Shown: in pieces, positions 1-6,003 of the stretch
Position numbering within the stretch: position 1 is the stretch's first letter
Layout of the letters: every line of letters begins with the position of its first letter
DNA from: an uncultured Eubacterium sp.
Lineage (GTDB): Bacteria; Bacillota_A; Clostridia; Lachnospirales; Lachnospiraceae
Reading direction: 5' to 3'
Length of the DNA: 6,084 nt
Assembly: GCA_948759685.1 (NCBI GenBank)
Contig: CAQBGY010000210.1
Location: forward strand, 1-6,084
Made by a program: the position numbers and the translations under genes
Notes under the pieces: model-generated
The model's input: the letters and a program-made list of their open reading frames with translations, nothing else
What the model was told of the DNA's origin: nothing
Database searches by the model: none

Positions 1-211
1 AAATCAGGATTTTACTGTCTTTTGCTTCTCTTCTAAGTGGTGCCACCAGGAATCGTAATCCTTCTTCAAGTGGCTGAATATCATTATTTTCTAAAAGCTA
101 CTCAATTGTAATCTCCTCCGATTGCTCCACCAATGACTTGCGTTGTTTTGCGCAAGGTTGCGTGAAGGTTTCCAAAGGCAAAGGTAGTGAATTAGTTTGA
201 ACTTTTACCAT
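1..211 (-). pseudogene. Possible gene broken by a TAG at codon 38, running off the window
   Basis: An ATG at 211 lies inside the 3' end of RhuM (20-bp overlap). It opens a frame of 37 codons (MVKVQTNSLPLPLETFTQ..., ending SLVEQSEEITIE) closed by TAG at 98-100. The same frame then continues without another stop for 32 codons to the window edge, with gene-like composition (LLENNDIQPLEEG... LRREAKDSK). A single TGG-to-TAG change would explain the break, giving a pseudogene. Alternatives are a real 37-aa peptide, or no gene at all: two other frames on this strand are also partly open here, so the support is weak. I do not recognise the product. Sequence beyond position 1 would settle it. Confidence 0.3.
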
Positions 212-1190
212 TGTTATCTTTCAATTTCTTGATTTCCTTATCAAAATCGCTTTCAAGTAGTTCCATTTCACGCTTGCGATAGATAGCAAACTCCTTTTCT
301 GCCTTCTCAATCGCTTGTTTATGCGAAATGTTTCCCTTGCCAATCAAAACCTTTCGCTTGTGTGCTATAATTTGGTTGTCCAGTGCTTCTATCCAATCTT
401 TCATTGTCATAGGATTCATTTCCAATGCTTGGAACTCGGCAAAGTCCAGGAAACCGGAAACAAGCAGATTCAGACGTTGAAGTTCAATCTCAGACAAATA
501 GTTCTTGGCAATCTTTACATCATCCTTAGTCACATAGTTTCCCTTGAAGTTTGTCATACCCACAAACGGCTTCTCATTGTCCACACGATTGTAAATAACC
601 TCAGCTGCCGTATTCTCGTGAACTGCATAATGCAACTTGTTCTGAACGGTGGCAAAAAAGGTCTTTGTCATCTCGTCACGTGGGTCATAATCCATGGCCG
701 TAGCATAAATATCGGTGATTTGCTGATAGAAGTTGCGCTCGCTACTGCGAATATCCCTAATGCGTTGTAATAACTCTCGAAAATAACGGTTGCCACCTTG
801 TTTCAATCGTTCGTCATCCATAGCAAATCCCTTTTGAATATATTCGTGAAGCCGTTGTGTTGCCCAACGGCGGAAACGGGTTGCTACCTGAGACTGCACA
901 CGATAACCCAAGGCGATGATCATATCAAGATTATAGTGGTCAATGTTACGTTTTACCTGACGATTTCCCTCCTGGCGAACTAACAAGAATTTCTTGTTGG
1001 TTGCTTCTGTGGTCAACTCTCCATCTTTATATATATTGTCCACATGCTGGCTGATATTTTGTTGTGTAGTACAATAAATTTCTGCCAACTGATTTTGTGT
1101 CAGCCACAAATCTTCATCAGCAAAACGAACAGATACACGAGTTATTTCGTTGTCATCCTGATAAAGTATTATTTTGTTTTGTTCGTTCAT
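192..1190 (-). CDS. RhuM-family protein (virulence RhuM, Bro-N-like N-terminus)
   Basis: This 332-residue protein is a full-length RhuM-family member, named after rhuM of Salmonella pathogenicity island 3; its biochemical activity is unknown. The N-terminal part contains the winged-helix-like LWLTQNQLAEIYCTTQQNIS (28-47), then KKFLLVRQEGNRQVKR (66-81) and HYNLDMIIALGYRVQS (85-100), and the conserved FRRWATQRLHEYIQKGF (106-122). The second half has YFRELLQRIRDIRSSE (136-151) and the family-typical LHYAVHENTAAEVIYNR (186-202), loosely reminiscent of Fic/Doc-related sequences. A charged coiled-coil-like tail (about 290-326) closes it. RhuM genes are frequent in restriction and defence islands, often beside type I restriction genes. 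It is the last intact gene here, 3 bp after the NdpA-family stop. Bases 841-900 hold 33 G/C in 60, much more than the cassette upstream, so it probably has a different origin. Confidence 0.92.
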   Translation of the reverse strand: MNEQNKIILYQDDNEITRVSVRFADEDLWLTQNQLAEIYCTTQQNISQHVDNIYKDGELTTEATNKKFLLVRQEGNRQVKRNIDHYNLDMIIALGYRVQSQVATRFRRWATQRLHEYIQKGFAMDDERLKQGGNRYFRELLQRIRDIRSSERNFYQQITDIYATAMDYDPRDEMTKTFFATVQNKLHYAVHENTAAEVIYNRVDNEKPFVGMTNFKGNYVTKDDVKIAKNYLSEIELQRLNLLVSGFLDFAEFQALEMNPMTMKDWIEALDNQIIAHKRKVLIGKGNISHKQAIEKAEKEFAIYRKREMELLESDFDKEIKKLKDNNGKSSN

Positions 1191-1193
1191 TGC

Positions 1194-2225
1194 CTATTTT
1201 TCTTCTTTAAAAAACAACTGATAGTAATGCATTTTTCGCTTCTCATCATAGCCTCTTTTTATATATTGCTCTCCGCCATGAATGTTTATATCAAAGTTCT
1301 TATCAAGCTTAATTGTTGTCATTGTACCTGTAGCTCTACGTTTGATTGCATTAGATGCAGTAGCAAAAGAATCGTCAATTTCAATATCTCTCTCTTTCTG
1401 ATAACTTTCTTTATACTGTTTGAACTCAGAAACTAATTCTGGAGTTTCAAAAACCTGTTCCGCAAAAGTTTCTACATTAACAGATTCCTCTTTCAAAGCT
1501 TCCACACTTCTGTTCATATATGTTGCTTTTTCGACTTTACCATTATCACTTGGTAATTGAGAAACGAAACTCTTGCATAGAGACAGCATGTTTTGTGTTT
1601 GATTGAAGCTATCTTTTCTTGACCGAATATGCAGAAAATCTTCTGTCCAATACTTGGCTTCTGAACCTTTGTTCACGTTATCTACGATAGCAACTACATA
1701 ACCTTTTTCTTTTTCTACATTGAAAATCAAACAGCCTTTATCTAGTCTGTTGATATTGATACCTTTTTCACTTTCAATTTCAAAACTATCTCCTTTAGGA
1801 TATATTTTTAAGAATGTATCTTTGTTTTCTGACTTAAAAAGCCCAATTGCATTTACTCTTTTTTCATCAATAATGCAATCTTCAAAATATACAATATAAA
1901 ACTCTCCACCTTTTATTTTAGGGTGTACACTTTGTTCATATAAATGTTTTGCTAAATCTATTGTATCTGAAATACAAATAGAACCTTTCTTGAATATTCT
2001 ATCGGCAATGGAATAGACTTCATTATATTTAAGATCAATTTGGTGAGATAGTACATAAAGTTCCACGAAATTAAACTTTGACAAAAAATATCTTGAAAGG
2101 ATTTCCTTAGTTAAATCATCAGTGTCAACAAGATTCTTTGATAAAACTAAGGGTTCGTCAATATATTTATTCCCGACCTTATGTAAAGCTATTGCTTGAA
2201 TTTCTGCATTATTGAATTGTATCAT
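1194..2225 (-). CDS. Nucleoid-associated protein, NdpA (37-kDa) family
   Basis: This 343-residue protein fits the 37-kDa nucleoid-associated protein family (NdpA/YejK), whose members bind the bacterial nucleoid. The recognisable blocks are HPKIKGGEFYIVYF (101-114), AIGLFKSENKDTFLK (126-140), the glycine-containing LDKGCLIF (161-168), YWTEDFL (192-198), and a C-terminal block around DINIHGGEQYIKRGYDE (312-328) followed by MHYYQLFF. These match the Bacteroidetes branch of the family in order and spacing. The protein should be cytoplasmic and DNA-associated. It starts 17 bp inside the membrane-protein gene, and its stop is 3 bp from the RhuM start. That embedding in a membrane/defence cassette is unusual for a protein usually regarded as a housekeeping chromatin component, and suggests a role in sensing or binding foreign DNA. 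Composition is AT-rich (bases 1801-1860 hold 15 G/C in 60). The family call is fairly sure; the defence role is inference. Confidence 0.86.
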   Translation of the reverse strand: MIQFNNAEIQAIALHKVGNKYIDEPLVLSKNLVDTDDLTKEILSRYFLSKFNFVELYVLSHQIDLKYNEVYSIADRIFKKGSICISDTIDLAKHLYEQSVHPKIKGGEFYIVYFEDCIIDEKRVNAIGLFKSENKDTFLKIYPKGDSFEIESEKGININRLDKGCLIFNVEKEKGYVVAIVDNVNKGSEAKYWTEDFLHIRSRKDSFNQTQNMLSLCKSFVSQLPSDNGKVEKATYMNRSVEALKEESVNVETFAEQVFETPELVSEFKQYKESYQKERDIEIDDSFATASNAIKRRATGTMTTIKLDKNFDINIHGGEQYIKRGYDEKRKMHYYQLFFKEEK

Positions 2226-2664
2226 TTTTATCTTGAATTAAAATATAGAATATTATGAGAAAATAGATAACCTCAATTAGAAACCAACAGAATCCTCCAA
2301 AGAAAATAGACACCATAATTATAGGAATCTTGTCATGGCTTGAAAGTAAGCTATTCCAATCAAGATAGCCTAAAATATATGAGTAGATGGTTAAAAAAAG
2401 AGAGATAAAAACTACTTTTCTATTGTAGAAAATAAATCTTTTATATGGAATTTTTCTTTTTCGAATTTCGGTAATAATATCGCTATCACTTTGAATAATT
2501 AACCCAAATAAAGTCAGTAAGAATCCAAAAGCACATGTGCCAATTGTTGTAAATTGTTTTATAAATTCCTTACAGTCAGAATAGTTCACAATCTCATGTT
2601 TAAAAAATAGATAACTAACCCAAACTCCTAAAAGAAGTGGAACATATTTCTCAATGACTCTCAT
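2209..2664 (-). CDS. Small four-helix integral membrane protein, unknown family
   Basis: This 151-residue protein is dominated by hydrophobic segments at about residues 7-22, 38-57, 84-102 and 113-143. The last is long enough to be a single tilted helix or a hairpin. A basic loop (EIRKRKIPYKR, 66-76) between helices 2 and 3 should face the cytoplasm. No enzyme motif or signal peptide is visible. Size and topology resemble the inner-membrane partners of some phage-defence systems, such as lambda RexB (four helices, about 144 residues) and the membrane subunit of Kiwa, but I see no sequence motif that establishes homology. It overlaps the 317-aa gene by 14 bp and the NdpA-family gene by 17 bp, so the three products are probably made in linked amounts. 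Very AT-rich: bases 2401-2460 hold 11 G/C in 60. It could be an effector that depolarises the membrane, or an anchor for its neighbours. Confidence 0.8.
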   Translation of the reverse strand: MRVIEKYVPLLLGVWVSYLFFKHEIVNYSDCKEFIKQFTTIGTCAFGFLLTLFGLIIQSDSDIITEIRKRKIPYKRFIFYNRKVVFISLFLTIYSYILGYLDWNSLLSSHDKIPIIMVSIFFGGFCWFLIEVIYFLIIFYILIQDKNDTIQ

Positions 2665-3604
2665 TGCCTTCTCTGTTGAAAATATAATTAAGCTCAGGTA
2701 AGTGCTTTAAATATAGTTTTTCTATTTCTTCTTTCCGCTCTGTTTCTTGAAGATTAGAATGCAATGTTTGGGTCGTTAATTTGATATATACAGTAAAGAC
2801 ATCACTTACGAGATTTATTGGCTGTAATGTTTGAGGTTCGTTTGGGTCTGCAAAATAGCCTTTTACTTGTAACTTTTTTACATTTTTCCGTTGCTCTCCA
2901 GCAAGTAGGAATCCAAATGACTTTGCTAATTCCAAAATCACTTTAGATGATAATCCTAGCTTGTTTAATCGTTTTCCAAAAGTTGCAAATTTCAAAACAA
3001 ATACATCGGAATTATTTTTCATTCCTTTTGAAATATAACTCTTTGCCATGGAAAATAGACTAGATGTACTATCCTTATAATCTTGTAAAATTTCTGTCGG
3101 GTTGGTTAATTCTACATAGAACTCCTTATAATATCTCATTCTTATCAAACGTTGGTATTCTCCTTTTCGAGAAACTGGAAGAAATGACAATTCAATTTTG
3201 TCATCATAATGATTATTCCAATAAGTTTGGATATTTTCAGCTAACTTATCAAGATAACATCCGTTCATATTTAATTCATAGAAAAAGACGTTAATTCTAC
3301 TGTCGTAAAGGAATATATTTCCAAAAGATAATTTCTCTTTATTGACATCAAGGTTCAATTGAGAGAATTCACCTGTTTGATTATTTCGTTTTGGAGGTAG
3401 ATCTTTATTTTGTCCAGTCATGACTATACCAACATTACAATTGGGGTGCGTAGTAGGCATTAATCTAATTTCATGATCTTTGAATTCATTTTGAAATCTT
3501 TTTCCATTTATATCACTAAGTATTTGCTCAAATGTTATTTCACAACCCAAACATTTAATTTTAGGAGATATAACCTCTACTCGTTTGTTTTTCTTTGTTG
3601 CCAT
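2651..3604 (-). CDS. Unrecognised 317-aa soluble protein, first gene of the AT-rich cassette
   Basis: I do not recognise this family. The 317-residue protein has no signal peptide or membrane segment. It begins with a basic tail (MATKKNKR) and two cysteines in CLGC (18-21). It then shows alternating hydrophobic stretches that suggest beta strands: HEIRLMP (44-50), NVGIVMTG (57-64), GNIFLYDSRINVFFYELN (95-112). A probable mixed alpha/beta half follows: FYVELTNP (162-169), VFVLKFATFG (201-210), helical VILELAKSFGFLL (222-234), VFTVYIKL (269-276). A charged helix near 286-302 closes it. No catalytic motif stands out. Its last 14 bases overlap the start of the membrane-protein gene, so the two are probably made together and may interact. 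The soluble-plus-small-membrane pairing recalls RexA/RexB in layout only. Codons are AT-rich compared with the gene before it. Its reality rests on length, a plausible start and tight overlap. Confidence 0.83.
   Translation of the reverse strand: MATKKNKRVEVISPKIKCLGCEITFEQILSDINGKRFQNEFKDHEIRLMPTTHPNCNVGIVMTGQNKDLPPKRNNQTGEFSQLNLDVNKEKLSFGNIFLYDSRINVFFYELNMNGCYLDKLAENIQTYWNNHYDDKIELSFLPVSRKGEYQRLIRMRYYKEFYVELTNPTEILQDYKDSTSSLFSMAKSYISKGMKNNSDVFVLKFATFGKRLNKLGLSSKVILELAKSFGFLLAGEQRKNVKKLQVKGYFADPNEPQTLQPINLVSDVFTVYIKLTTQTLHSNLQETERKEEIEKLYLKHLPELNYIFNREGNESH
2667..2672 (-). promoter_or_regulatory. Ribosome binding site of the membrane-protein gene
   Basis: AGAAGG lies just upstream of the ATG at 2664, still inside the end of the 317-aa coding sequence. 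It supports that start and a coupled translation of the two overlapping genes. Confidence 0.4.
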
Positions 3605-3606
3605 AG

Positions 3607-3612
3607 TCCTTT
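3607..3612 (-). promoter_or_regulatory. Ribosome binding site of the 317-aa gene
   Basis: In the 17-bp gap after the DUF262-HNH stop, the minus strand reads AAAGGA two bases before the ATG at 3604. It is short and very close to the start, but it is one of only two purine-rich, Shine-Dalgarno-like sites in this operon. It supports ATG 3604 as the true start and reinitiation straight after the upstream stop. Confidence 0.4.
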
Positions 3613-3621
3613 ATTTTATAA

Positions 3622-4731
3622 TTATTTTCCTCCCTTAACTCTATTACAATTTTTACAAAGCATTTGGCAATTCTCTGCTACTGTCGTACCACCTTCTTTC
3701 CAAGGGGTTATGTGGTCTGCCTCCATTTCTTCAAGTTCAAAATGTTTGCCACAGTGTACGCAGATACCATTTTGCCGCTCGTATGCCTCACGCTTTTGTT
3801 TTTTGTCAAAAGTGCGGAAACTGAGGTCGCGCAGGTCACCACTCAATACATAACGGTAGATGCCGGATTTTTTCATAATCTCATCGTCCTCCATCAAGTC
3901 GTGGATTTGCTTTTCAAGTACATCTGTATCATAAACGCCTTCACCAAACTCATCGAACATCGTGCCCCAATCCAAGCCTTTCATCTCACGGCGATATTTC
4001 GGAAAGGTGGAGCGTATCCATGTGATGATAGACACGAAATAAGCCCACAACTTGTTGGCATTCGGGTCAAACTGATGTTGCGCCATATAATCATCTATCT
4101 TAGCAATACTATCATGGCGTGCCGCCCATTTAAGGATGGTTGAAAGATATGCCTGTTCAATGGCAGTGCCGTTCAAAAAGTCTGCACCGAGTTTGTATGC
4201 AGGACAACCGGTTTTTGAAAAGTAACGGCGGGCATCTGTCACAAACGGGCCTGTATAAACAGCGTTAAGAAGTTCCTGGTCAAGTAATTTCTCTCCGGCG
4301 ATGTTGATAACTCTAAACCAATCCAGTTTTTCTTTATCCGTCCCCTCACAGAAATATACCGTAAGTTCATAGTTTAAGAACTTCTCTTTTTCCTCATTTG
4401 TCAGTGTTGAGAAATAGAGAGTGCCACGGTCTTTATCCTCTATGTTGAAACCGTGGGTAAGAAACTCGCATATAGACAATGTGCGTTGTTGCCCATCAAT
4501 CATTTCGTAGTTCCCATTTTCACCTACGCTCCAATACATGATATTGAGTGGATATCCCTTTAAAATGGTATCAATGACAGCTTGCTGTTGTTTTAAATCA
4601 TATCGGAACTCACGTTGATATGGTGGACGAATATCCAACTTTCCACCATACCCTCTAACACCAGTATCGGCATCATTACTATAACCTTCAATAAGGTCGA
4701 CTATCTTTATGGATTTCGGATCTATATTCAT
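3622..4731 (-). CDS. DUF262 domain protein with C-terminal HNH endonuclease (GmrSD-like)
   Basis: This is a 369-residue two-domain protein. The N-terminal part is a DUF262 (GmrS-like) domain: IRPPYQREFRYD around residues 34-45 and the signature IDGQQRTLSICEFL starting at residue 78, whose DGQQR is linked to nucleotide hydrolysis in GmrSD, SspE and relatives. The C-terminus (about 324-369) is a compact HNH nuclease with zinc cysteines C324xxC327 and C359xxC362, the ADH core at 338-340, and N354 and N363. GmrSD-type proteins instead carry DUF1524 as the nuclease. The family generally cleaves phage DNA, often modified DNA, in an NTP-dependent way. Here it sits 5 bp after an EcoRI-family methylase, so it may be the restriction half of a methylase-guarded pair. 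Part of its interior is about 53% GC (3961-4020), well above the gene after it. The protein looks complete, since HNH domains commonly end just after the CxxCN..KG motif. Confidence 0.88.
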   Translation of the reverse strand: MNIDPKSIKIVDLIEGYSNDADTGVRGYGGKLDIRPPYQREFRYDLKQQQAVIDTILKGYPLNIMYWSVGENGNYEMIDGQQRTLSICEFLTHGFNIEDKDRGTLYFSTLTNEEKEKFLNYELTVYFCEGTDKEKLDWFRVINIAGEKLLDQELLNAVYTGPFVTDARRYFSKTGCPAYKLGADFLNGTAIEQAYLSTILKWAARHDSIAKIDDYMAQHQFDPNANKLWAYFVSIITWIRSTFPKYRREMKGLDWGTMFDEFGEGVYDTDVLEKQIHDLMEDDEIMKKSGIYRYVLSGDLRDLSFRTFDKKQKREAYERQNGICVHCGKHFELEEMEADHITPWKEGGTTVAENCQMLCKNCNRVKGGK

Positions 4732-4736
4732 GACTG

Positions 4737-5786
4737 TTATTTTTTAATTTTACGAATGATAATACGAGCATAAGGTAGGATTACAATTCCATCTTTCAAT
4801 ATGTATGGTGAGTTCATGTTAGCTGTAACATGAGCTTTGTTTCCTTGTAATCTCAATTTGTCAATTGTACCTTGTCCCATTATTTTGAATCCCACAGATC
4901 TTATCCAGTCTGTATCGCATGTATTACCGATTATCTCGAATTGATCGGGGTTGTATTTATCCATGAAAGTAATAGGTACTCCCATCTTTCCATCATAATC
5001 ACATGGAATTTCTGCTGTTTTGGAAATATCTATAGCATCATAATTCTCATATTTAGGGTATTCCTCGGGAGAATACTTTTTATAAAGAATGATATTCTCA
5101 TGTCTTTTAGGCGTTTCTAAATTTGTGAACCATGTTACTCCAGAAACACGTATCATACCTTCACGGTGGTCACCAGCCGTAGCTTTATCCTCGTAATGGG
5201 AGATAAAATGACCTGCCCCTCCTTTAAAACCATAGCCAAGCCAAAGTTTATTTTGCTGGATAAGAGGGAATATTTCTTTGTACTTGATAGCATTTTGATG
5301 TCCGATAATCAAGAACTTCTTATCATATTCAATGAGTTGTGCAACATATTCTCTAAATAAAGAAAATGGAGGATTAGTGACAACTATATCCGCTTCTTTT
5401 AGAAGTTCTATACACTCTTTACTTCTAAAATCGCCATCCCCCTTTAATGGCATTACACCTATCTCATCTGCATTCGGTATATGGTCTCCGTTTTTGTCTC
5501 CTTCATAAACCAAATATACAGCTTGCTCACTTTTGTTCTGACTGAACAAGTCCATATCTTGATTTTTGTAACAAGTGGTAATCAACTTTTTCAATCCAAG
5601 AAATTCAAAGTTGTAAGCAAAATAGGTGAAGAAATTGCTGACACGTGGGTCATCACAATTACACAATACTGTTTTACCACGGAAATGTTCACGGTAATGC
5701 TTCAGTTCGTTGTTTATATCTTCAAGTTGCGTATAAAACTCGTCCTTTTTCGCTTCTTTAGCCTTATTCAGATTCTTATTCGCCAT
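4737..5786 (-). CDS. EcoRI-family adenine-specific DNA methyltransferase
   Basis: This 349-residue protein fits the EcoRI methylase family (N6-adenine methyltransferases using S-adenosylmethionine; M.EcoRI itself has 326 residues). Visible family signatures are the N-terminal KKDEFYTQ (13-20), the conserved block CNCDDPRVSNFFTYFAYNF (42-60), and the catalytic NPPF motif at 138-141 within VVTNPPFSLFREYV. The end is basic (RIIIRKIKK). It appears intact, with no break in any motif. It follows the HTH gene with an 11-bp overlap and precedes the DUF262-HNH gene by only 5 bp, which suggests it protects host DNA from, or sets the target mark for, that nuclease. The target site cannot be read from the sequence. 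If it kept the EcoRI site GAATTC, I find two full copies in the window, at 3365-3370 and 3482-3487, both inside the 317-aa gene. It could also be an orphan methylase with a purely regulatory role. Confidence 0.9.
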   Translation of the reverse strand: MANKNLNKAKEAKKDEFYTQLEDINNELKHYREHFRGKTVLCNCDDPRVSNFFTYFAYNFEFLGLKKLITTCYKNQDMDLFSQNKSEQAVYLVYEGDKNGDHIPNADEIGVMPLKGDGDFRSKECIELLKEADIVVTNPPFSLFREYVAQLIEYDKKFLIIGHQNAIKYKEIFPLIQQNKLWLGYGFKGGAGHFISHYEDKATAGDHREGMIRVSGVTWFTNLETPKRHENIILYKKYSPEEYPKYENYDAIDISKTAEIPCDYDGKMGVPITFMDKYNPDQFEIIGNTCDTDWIRSVGFKIMGQGTIDKLRLQGNKAHVTANMNSPYILKDGIVILPYARIIIRKIKK

Positions 5787-6003
5787 ATCGTTCTTCGTTG
5801 TTATTTGGATTAATCAGTTTTCGTACATCTATTTTCAGTACATTCGCAATCTTGACAAGCATTTCTAATGATGGTTGTGAAGTATTGGAACACCAACGAG
5901 AAATAGTAGCTTCATTCTTTTGGAGTTGTTCTGCTAACCATTTCCCTGTTCTATTTTGTTCAACCAATACTACTTTTATTCTATTTATTCTTTCTGTTTC
6001 CAC
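5776..6003 (-). CDS. Small XRE-family HTH regulator, controller-protein-like
   Basis: This is a 75-residue protein made almost entirely of one helix-turn-helix domain. The segment from about residue 20 to 64 (GKWLAEQL, then EATISRWCSN, then PSLEMLVKIANVLKID) is the standard Cro/CI five-helix fold, with TISRW at the start of the recognition helix. The length is close to controller (C) proteins of type II restriction-modification systems, which time expression of the nuclease relative to the methylase. The start is GTG: an in-frame TAA lies a few codons upstream, and the next methionine, at residue 48, would remove most of the domain. Its last 11 bases overlap the methylase start (ATGGCGAATAA), so the two genes are probably translationally coupled. 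It most likely represses or tunes its own promoter just upstream. A generic XRE repressor is equally compatible with the sequence. Confidence 0.88.
   Translation of the reverse strand: METERINRIKVVLVEQNRTGKWLAEQLQKNEATISRWCSNTSQPSLEMLVKIANVLKIDVRKLINPNNNEERYGE

Follow-up and report, generated by a model that had tools for sequence, protein, structure and literature searches.

The window, i.e., the whole stretch of 6,084 nucleotides that was analysed, carries seven genes on the minus strand, in the order of transcription HTH, methylase, DUF262-HNH, 317 aa, 151 aa, NA37, and RhuM. The small HTH protein (5776..6003; PF01381, E 2.8e-9), a possible controller of the island, is followed by an EcoRI-type adenine methyltransferase (4737..5786; PF13651, E 1.4e-138; PADLOC MTase_II), the partner of the HNH gene, and by the GmrSD_N/DUF262-HNH protein itself (3622..4731; PF03235 and PF01844; PDLC03418, 416 bits over residues 1-366; PADLOC REase_II). 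The next three genes form a cassette, consisting of a 317-aa ORF (2651..3604) whose product is probably RexA-like by fold and profile comparison, a 151-aa membrane protein (2209..2664) that is probably RexB-like by hydropathy and by comparison of its family profile with the RexB family, and a 343-aa protein of the NA37/YejK (NdpA) family (1194..2225; PF04245). A RhuM-family protein (192..1190; PF13310, E 1.2e-107; PADLOC candidate PDC-S05, 477.5 bits) is the downstream neighbour. No integrase or transfer protein was found with Pfam among the seven window proteins scanned.

As described in the initial annotation, the genes of the trio overlap by 14 bp (317- and 151-aa genes) and 17 bp (151-aa and NA37 genes), and the trio is flanked by the RhuM (PF13310) and DUF262-HNH (GmrSD_N) genes. 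The stated difference in base composition is also present: the HNH (0.419) and RhuM (0.401) genes are GC-richer than the trio (0.300), in which the GC contents of the 317-aa, 151-aa, and NA37 genes are 0.306, 0.270, and 0.306, respectively. The methylase gene, at 0.352, hardly differs in GC content from the window as a whole (mean 0.351).

Comparison of the first two proteins with RexA and RexB

The 317-aa protein has no match in Pfam or NCBIfam at E ≤ 1, and the matches in PADLOC (Cas2_IIIb, E 0.011) and PHROGs (E 0.32) are weak. No PDB sequence was matched at E ≤ 10 by either profile A1 or profile A2. The initial annotation had pointed to RexA for comparison, and a RexA-like fold is predicted: both aligners rank lambda RexA first among the PDB matches, with a clear lead in Z (12.8 versus 7.0). 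RdgC and Iml3 are also matched by the predicted fold, and both are among the reported relatives of RexA (PMC11077077).

In profile comparison with hhalign, the outcome depended on the alignments used. The alignment of 15 RexA-like proteins (A9) matched that of five lambda-type RexA proteins (A6) with a score of 37.3 (P 1.6e-4); the aligned part spans 209 collinear columns (62-304 versus 55-273). The reversed A6 control scored 23.2, and none of 200 shuffled A6 alignments (100 block-shuffled and 100 globally shuffled) reached 37.3. The score was 15.3 for A1 versus the single lambda RexA and 31.4 for A4 versus A6, and the single lambda RexA was not significant against A9 (15 of 60 shuffles reached its score). 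The RexA signal needs profiles on both sides. The shuffle test is insensitive, because CarolAnn gp44, which is experimentally known to be Rex-like, fails in it to match lambda RexA (16 of 60 shuffles); against the RexA-like family it gave 24 of 60. No window protein matched the curated RexA and RexB models (PF15969, PF15968, PDLC02339, and PDLC02340) at E ≤ 1; the lambda proteins do match these models, and the CarolAnn proteins also miss them. The 317-aa protein is regarded as RexA-like and as a probable DNA-binding sensor.

The 317-aa protein is also distantly related to Pfam DUF6731 (PF20505). The PF20505 model did not match the protein itself at E ≤ 1, and it gave 25.9 and 19.7 bits, both below the cut-off of 27, on its relatives P0056 and P0044. 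On the more distant relatives in loci L008, L029, and L038 it gave 41.1, 64.1, and 27.1 bits, respectively, and none was obtained at E ≤ 0.01 for the RexA-like protein of L041.

The 151-aa protein was initially annotated as having four membrane helices, and this depends on the threshold: four hydrophobic segments are obtained at a Kyte-Doolittle value of ≥ 1.2, but only three at ≥ 1.5. It has 49 relatives and a weak match (E 0.0018) to the unnamed phage family phrog_17119 in PHROGs, and a GFL motif in helix 2 is invariant across 14 family members. The profile of these 14 (A8) aligned with that of five RexB proteins (A7) with a score of 22.45 (P 0.0057) over helix 2 and the following loop. None of 200 shuffles reached this score, the highest being 21.1. 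The narrower membrane profile A5 was not separated from the shuffles (10/100 and 5/100) in comparison with RexB. The alignment is thus suggestive of homology between the 151-aa family and RexB, and the protein is a probable membrane effector and RexB-like partner. The central loop of Sbash gp31 is reported to be required for defence (PMC6426596).

Recurrence and genomic surroundings of the pair and the trio

RexA-like loci were found in 2 of 393 (A1), 3 of 395 (PF20505), 1 of 123 (A1), 4 of 300 (A4), and 2 of 245 (A4) genomes, in overlapping draws; the A1 and A4 counts include their own centre genome, and the PF20505 count is a lower bound because this model missed the centre genome G001. The prevalence of these loci is therefore low. 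The nearest named genome with a relative of the 317-aa protein is that of Parabacteroides chinchillae (88% identity); the window trio probably belongs to a gut bacterium of the Bacteroidales. No match was found by tblastn among 50,697 phage and 72,556 plasmid records for the 317-aa protein (E ≤ 1e-5) or its L008 relative (E ≤ 0.01), and scans of IMG/VR with A1 and the L008 protein found no relative; these virus and plasmid scans are seeded by a handful of short words, and relatives at the distance of L030 and L041 would escape them.

All RexA-like loci from the genome searches, ten together with the window making 11, were examined. In every one of the 11, a gene for a small membrane protein adjoins that of the RexA-like protein, convergently in L008 and co-directionally in the other ten. 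The close-relative membrane profile A2 detects the partner in eight loci, five of them distant. In L029, L030, and L041 the partner is supported by position, size, and hydropathy, since no profile detects it there other than one built with these three proteins included. The three genes, proposed initially as one cassette, do recur together, in 5 of the 11 loci (the window, L001, L002, L031, and L036), and the membrane and NA37 genes overlap in all five. The NA37 protein of L036 was counted as such on 42% identity over the full length (hhalign), with no Pfam match at E ≤ 0.01. NA37 is absent from the other six loci. A co-occurrence proxy taken from coincident record sizes (seven RexA-like/membrane, five membrane/NA37, and two with all three) was not counted; it used 76 of 116 RexA-like, 49 of 49 membrane, and 30 of 120 NA37 matches listed, and some of the NA37 ones had been chosen after a match was noticed.

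The surroundings of the pair include both phage-type and defence genes. Two of the 11 loci have a repressor or phage-type context: in L030 the RexA-like gene is preceded by an S24/CI-type repressor and one small ORF and followed by the membrane gene, beyond which lies a tyrosine integrase on the opposite strand, and L041 has an HTH protein, the RexA-like gene, and the membrane gene, with a Mu-type transposase nearby. Both orders resemble that of cI-rexA-rexB in the annotated lambda stretch. In the window, an HTH gene lies two genes upstream and no phage gene was seen with Pfam, so that a prophage repressor context is not evident there. Thoeris genes (ThsA_Macro and ThsB_TIR) adjoin the pair in L037, an HsdR gene lies two genes upstream of it in L038, and an AAA_21/AAA_15 ATPase gene is found upstream in L029. 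The trio lies in a restriction-modification (R-M) island in the window, L001, and L002. Beside the trios of L031 and L036 there are no R-M genes in the stretch read, and the adjacent gene is presumably trmE.

The NA37/YejK protein and its other loci

The assignment of the 343-aa protein to the NdpA family in the initial annotation is firmly supported by PF04245 (E 4.5e-30; 105.6 bits versus a cut-off of 24.6), and its predicted fold is that of YejK. Its search against PDB sequences gave one match, a ribosomal protein with E 0.35, and hhalign detected no similarity of NA37 to the RexA-like family or to RexA. Both the family model and the fold are shared with E. coli YejK (NdpA); unlike this protein, the window NA37 is encoded in a cassette, by a gene that overlaps that of a membrane protein.

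A search with the window protein (E ≤ 1e-20) gave matches in 6 of 121 genomes, one of which is G001. The NA37 loci of the other five were read, and no RexA-like or membrane gene was detected in them by HMM. In one of them (L082), however, NA37 is directly preceded by genes for a membrane protein of 167 aa and a further protein of 301 aa, the genes of this trio being 1 bp apart. By hhalign, the 301-aa protein is similar to the RexA-like family (P 8.4e-5; 0/60 shuffles) and the 167-aa protein to the membrane family (P 7.9e-4; 0/60 shuffles); against lambda's own proteins, 3 of 60 (RexA) and 4 of 60 (RexB) shuffles reached the scores, and no direct relation was found. Judged from these profiles, L082 is a second, very divergent trio. 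Other loci differ in what accompanies NA37. A RelA/SpoT-domain gene lies between two NA37 genes in L081, a protein of about 390 aa, with no family named, is encoded between two NA37 genes in L079 and L080, and an NA37 gene stands beside RhuM in L079.

From such varied cassettes (L079 to L082), NA37 would seem to be a module that is joined to one effector or another. It may be, and we propose this only tentatively, that NA37/YejK proteins serve the defence cassettes of Bacteroidota as an interchangeable module, which senses DNA or acts as an adaptor. Its effectors could then be a RexAB-like pair (the window, L001, L002, L031, L036, and the divergent L082), a RelA/SpoT-type protein (L081), or the protein of about 390 aa (L079 and L080), and RexAB-like pairs would be one among the output arms of a wider, modular system.

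Interpretation and significance

The trio is best explained, with reasonable though not high confidence, as a RexAB-like module for abortive infection in which a nucleoid-type protein is an accessory. This explanation is based on the gene order, the overlaps, the folds predicted for the 317-aa and NA37 proteins, the recurrence of the pair and the trio, and their nearness to defence or phage-type genes.

The R-M genes might be thought to belong to the same system, in which case five genes from the methylase to NA37 would couple an R-M nuclease to the membrane pair and NA37. In L001 and L002, as in the window, the methylase gene is indeed followed by those for the HNH, RexA-like, membrane, and NA37 proteins in this order; the RexA-like proteins of L001 and L002 are 88% and 72% identical to that of the window. 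The search with the HNH protein, however, gave 25 matches spread over 23 of 247 genomes, one of which is G001 with its trio, and in six of the other 24 that were read the methylase was present in 6/6 and the trio in 0/6. In L073, which has an HNH protein of 89% identity, another soluble and membrane pair takes the place of the trio between HNH and RhuM. This pair has no clear relation to the Rex profiles, since its soluble and membrane proteins were matched by 1/60 and 25/60 shuffles against the window-family profiles and by 5/60 and 19/60 against the lambda profiles. Since the R-M pair recurs without the trio, and the trio without R-M genes (L031 and L036), the two can be regarded as separable units, which in the window, L001, and L002 lie in one island. 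A single five-gene system was rejected on these grounds and appears improbable; the HNH gene is probably a neighbouring restriction gene and not part of the cassette.

Less readily dismissed, though still rather unlikely, is that two independent units lie side by side, the RexAB-like pair and a travelling NA37 module, which differs from the favoured explanation on NA37 only. The six RexA-like loci without NA37, and the NA37 relatives that stand in the RelA/SpoT and 390-aa cassettes or beside RhuM, are consistent with it. In contrast, the overlap of the membrane and NA37 genes in all five trios and the recurrence of a closely spaced divergent trio in L082 argue for a joint unit. The layout had initially been compared with both Kiwa and RexAB. 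The RexAB part is supported by the predicted fold, the pairing, and, less firmly, the profiles, but that of Kiwa is not: no KwaA or KwaB family was among the PADLOC matches at E ≤ 1, and the structural similarity is at noise level. We take PADLOC to include Kiwa models. A Kiwa relative, with the membrane protein as KwaA and either NA37 or the 317-aa protein as KwaB, is very improbable, the likeness being that of a membrane protein with a DNA-binding partner (PMC12904381). It is also doubtful that the RexA-like and NA37 proteins serve gene regulation or the maintenance of a mobile element in place of defence. RexA biases the lambda switch independently of RexB (PMC11077077), and NdpA2 is linked to ICE transfer by the title of PMC8565334. 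On the other side, several of the neighbours are restriction or Thoeris genes, and the window proteins include no integrase or transfer protein. L008 and L082 adjoin DUF5712 genes, which we take to be relaxases and which would favour the non-defence role.

The favoured RexAB-like module may be likened to several known systems. With lambda RexA/RexB it shares the predicted RexA-like fold, an adjacent membrane protein of about 145-150 aa, and the gene order, which in L030 and L041 extends to the repressor; it differs in that the window has no match to the curated models, lies outside a prophage immunity region, and has overlapping genes and a third gene, NA37. RexABpp of P. putida prophage 1, compared here by its description, is similar in that its RexA was recognised by HHpred and fold, it lies near a CI-like repressor, and its four-helix membrane partner is described as having no detectable RexB match, but it consists of two genes, is prophage-borne, and occurs in Pseudomonas (PMC12894663). 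CarolAnn gp44/gp43, Sbash gp30/gp31, and Butters gp30/gp31 likewise combine a soluble and a four-helix membrane protein; CarolAnn gp44/gp43 gave no significant hhalign alignment with the window-family profiles. The YejK system of DefensePredictor, a validated E. coli defence system, is likened to the trio by its domain alone (PMC13092281).

A mechanism may be modelled on lambda and P. putida RexAB (PMC11077077; PMC12894663). By analogy with RexA, the RexA-like protein would dimerise and bind DNA without sequence specificity, and what it senses may be a protein of the phage or the complexes of phage replication or recombination. Once triggered, it would act on the membrane protein at its cytoplasmic loop, and this four-helix protein would then open or damage the inner membrane, so that energy-dependent processes and growth stop and the infection is aborted. 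The YejK-family protein may help to hold or recognise DNA, or may restrain the pair in uninfected cells. The order of events in the trio may be different, because no direct RexA-RexB contact was seen by two-hybrid in P. putida and the effector of Butters is the soluble protein (both in PMC12894663).

According to a 2026 paper, lambda RexAB was the earliest abortive-infection system to be connected with phage defence, what triggers it has yet to be solved, and the Rex-like systems number only five, each from a phage or prophage (PMC12894663); orphan RexA homologs have been noted in bacterial genomes (PMC11077077). In the literature searched, which included few subscription papers, no mention of DUF6731 was found, nor, among the titles and openings of abstracts covered, a Rex-like system of Bacteroidota, and the PADLOC RexA and RexB models miss the RexA-like family of the window. 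The present module would extend a very small family of phage-defence systems. The RexA-like family is found in defence islands and phage-type contexts alike, and, related to DUF6731 and accompanied by a membrane partner in Bacteroidota, it would supply natural variants for comparison and would give this unnamed Pfam family a fold and a hypothesis. The trio would also lead one to ask how a nucleoid-associated protein contributes to a RexAB-like pair, and, because the YejK domain has been validated in defence (PMC13092281), the role of the third gene is directly testable.

Features of the NA37 and RexA-like proteins

The protein encoded by the NA37 gene of the window (1194-2225), of the NA37/YejK (NdpA) family, also matches phrog_1974, a family of uncharacterised phage proteins (E 1.3e-7). 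A protein identical to it (P0166) is reported in 519 contigs, whereas P0001, the closest copy (97%) of its RexA-like neighbour, is reported in 2. Residues 88-148 of the RexA-like protein (window:2651-3604) give a weak PADLOC match to Cas2_IIIb (E 0.011). Because a Cas2 fold is reported for the RexA dimerisation domain in PMC11077077, this match may be read as a remnant of such a fold, or it may be due to chance.

Genes adjoining the trio and related cassettes

The RhuM gene of the window (192-1190) starts 3 bp past the NA37 gene, and RhuM likewise comes immediately downstream of NA37 in the loci L001 and L079, while in L002, another copy of the trio, a schlafen-type gene follows NA37 in place of RhuM. 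In L082 (2201-4646), a trio of RexA-like, membrane and NA37 genes that has diverged strongly adjoins a DUF5712 gene, as does the RexA-like and membrane pair of L008, and for this reason the two may be carried by one type of mobilisable element.

NA37 genes also occur in pairs. In L079 (2069-5416) and L080 (693-3948), they flank an uncharacterised gene of about 390 aa; downstream lies RhuM in the former and a schlafen AlbA_2/HATPase gene in the latter. In a contiguous three-gene cassette of L081 (2305-5340), they flank a RelA/SpoT-domain gene, the product of which is possibly a nucleotide-synthetase effector with the NA37 proteins as partners.

The slot between HNH and RhuM

In L073, the slot of the trio between the HNH restriction gene and RhuM is occupied by a different pair (3449-5235), of which the soluble (329 aa) and membrane (266 aa) genes overlap by 4 bp. 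An additional 285-aa ORF (L073:1470-2327), which by its appearance may encode a DinD-type protein, lies between the methylase and HNH genes. Judged from L073, it is as if the island exchanges cassettes at the HNH-RhuM slot.
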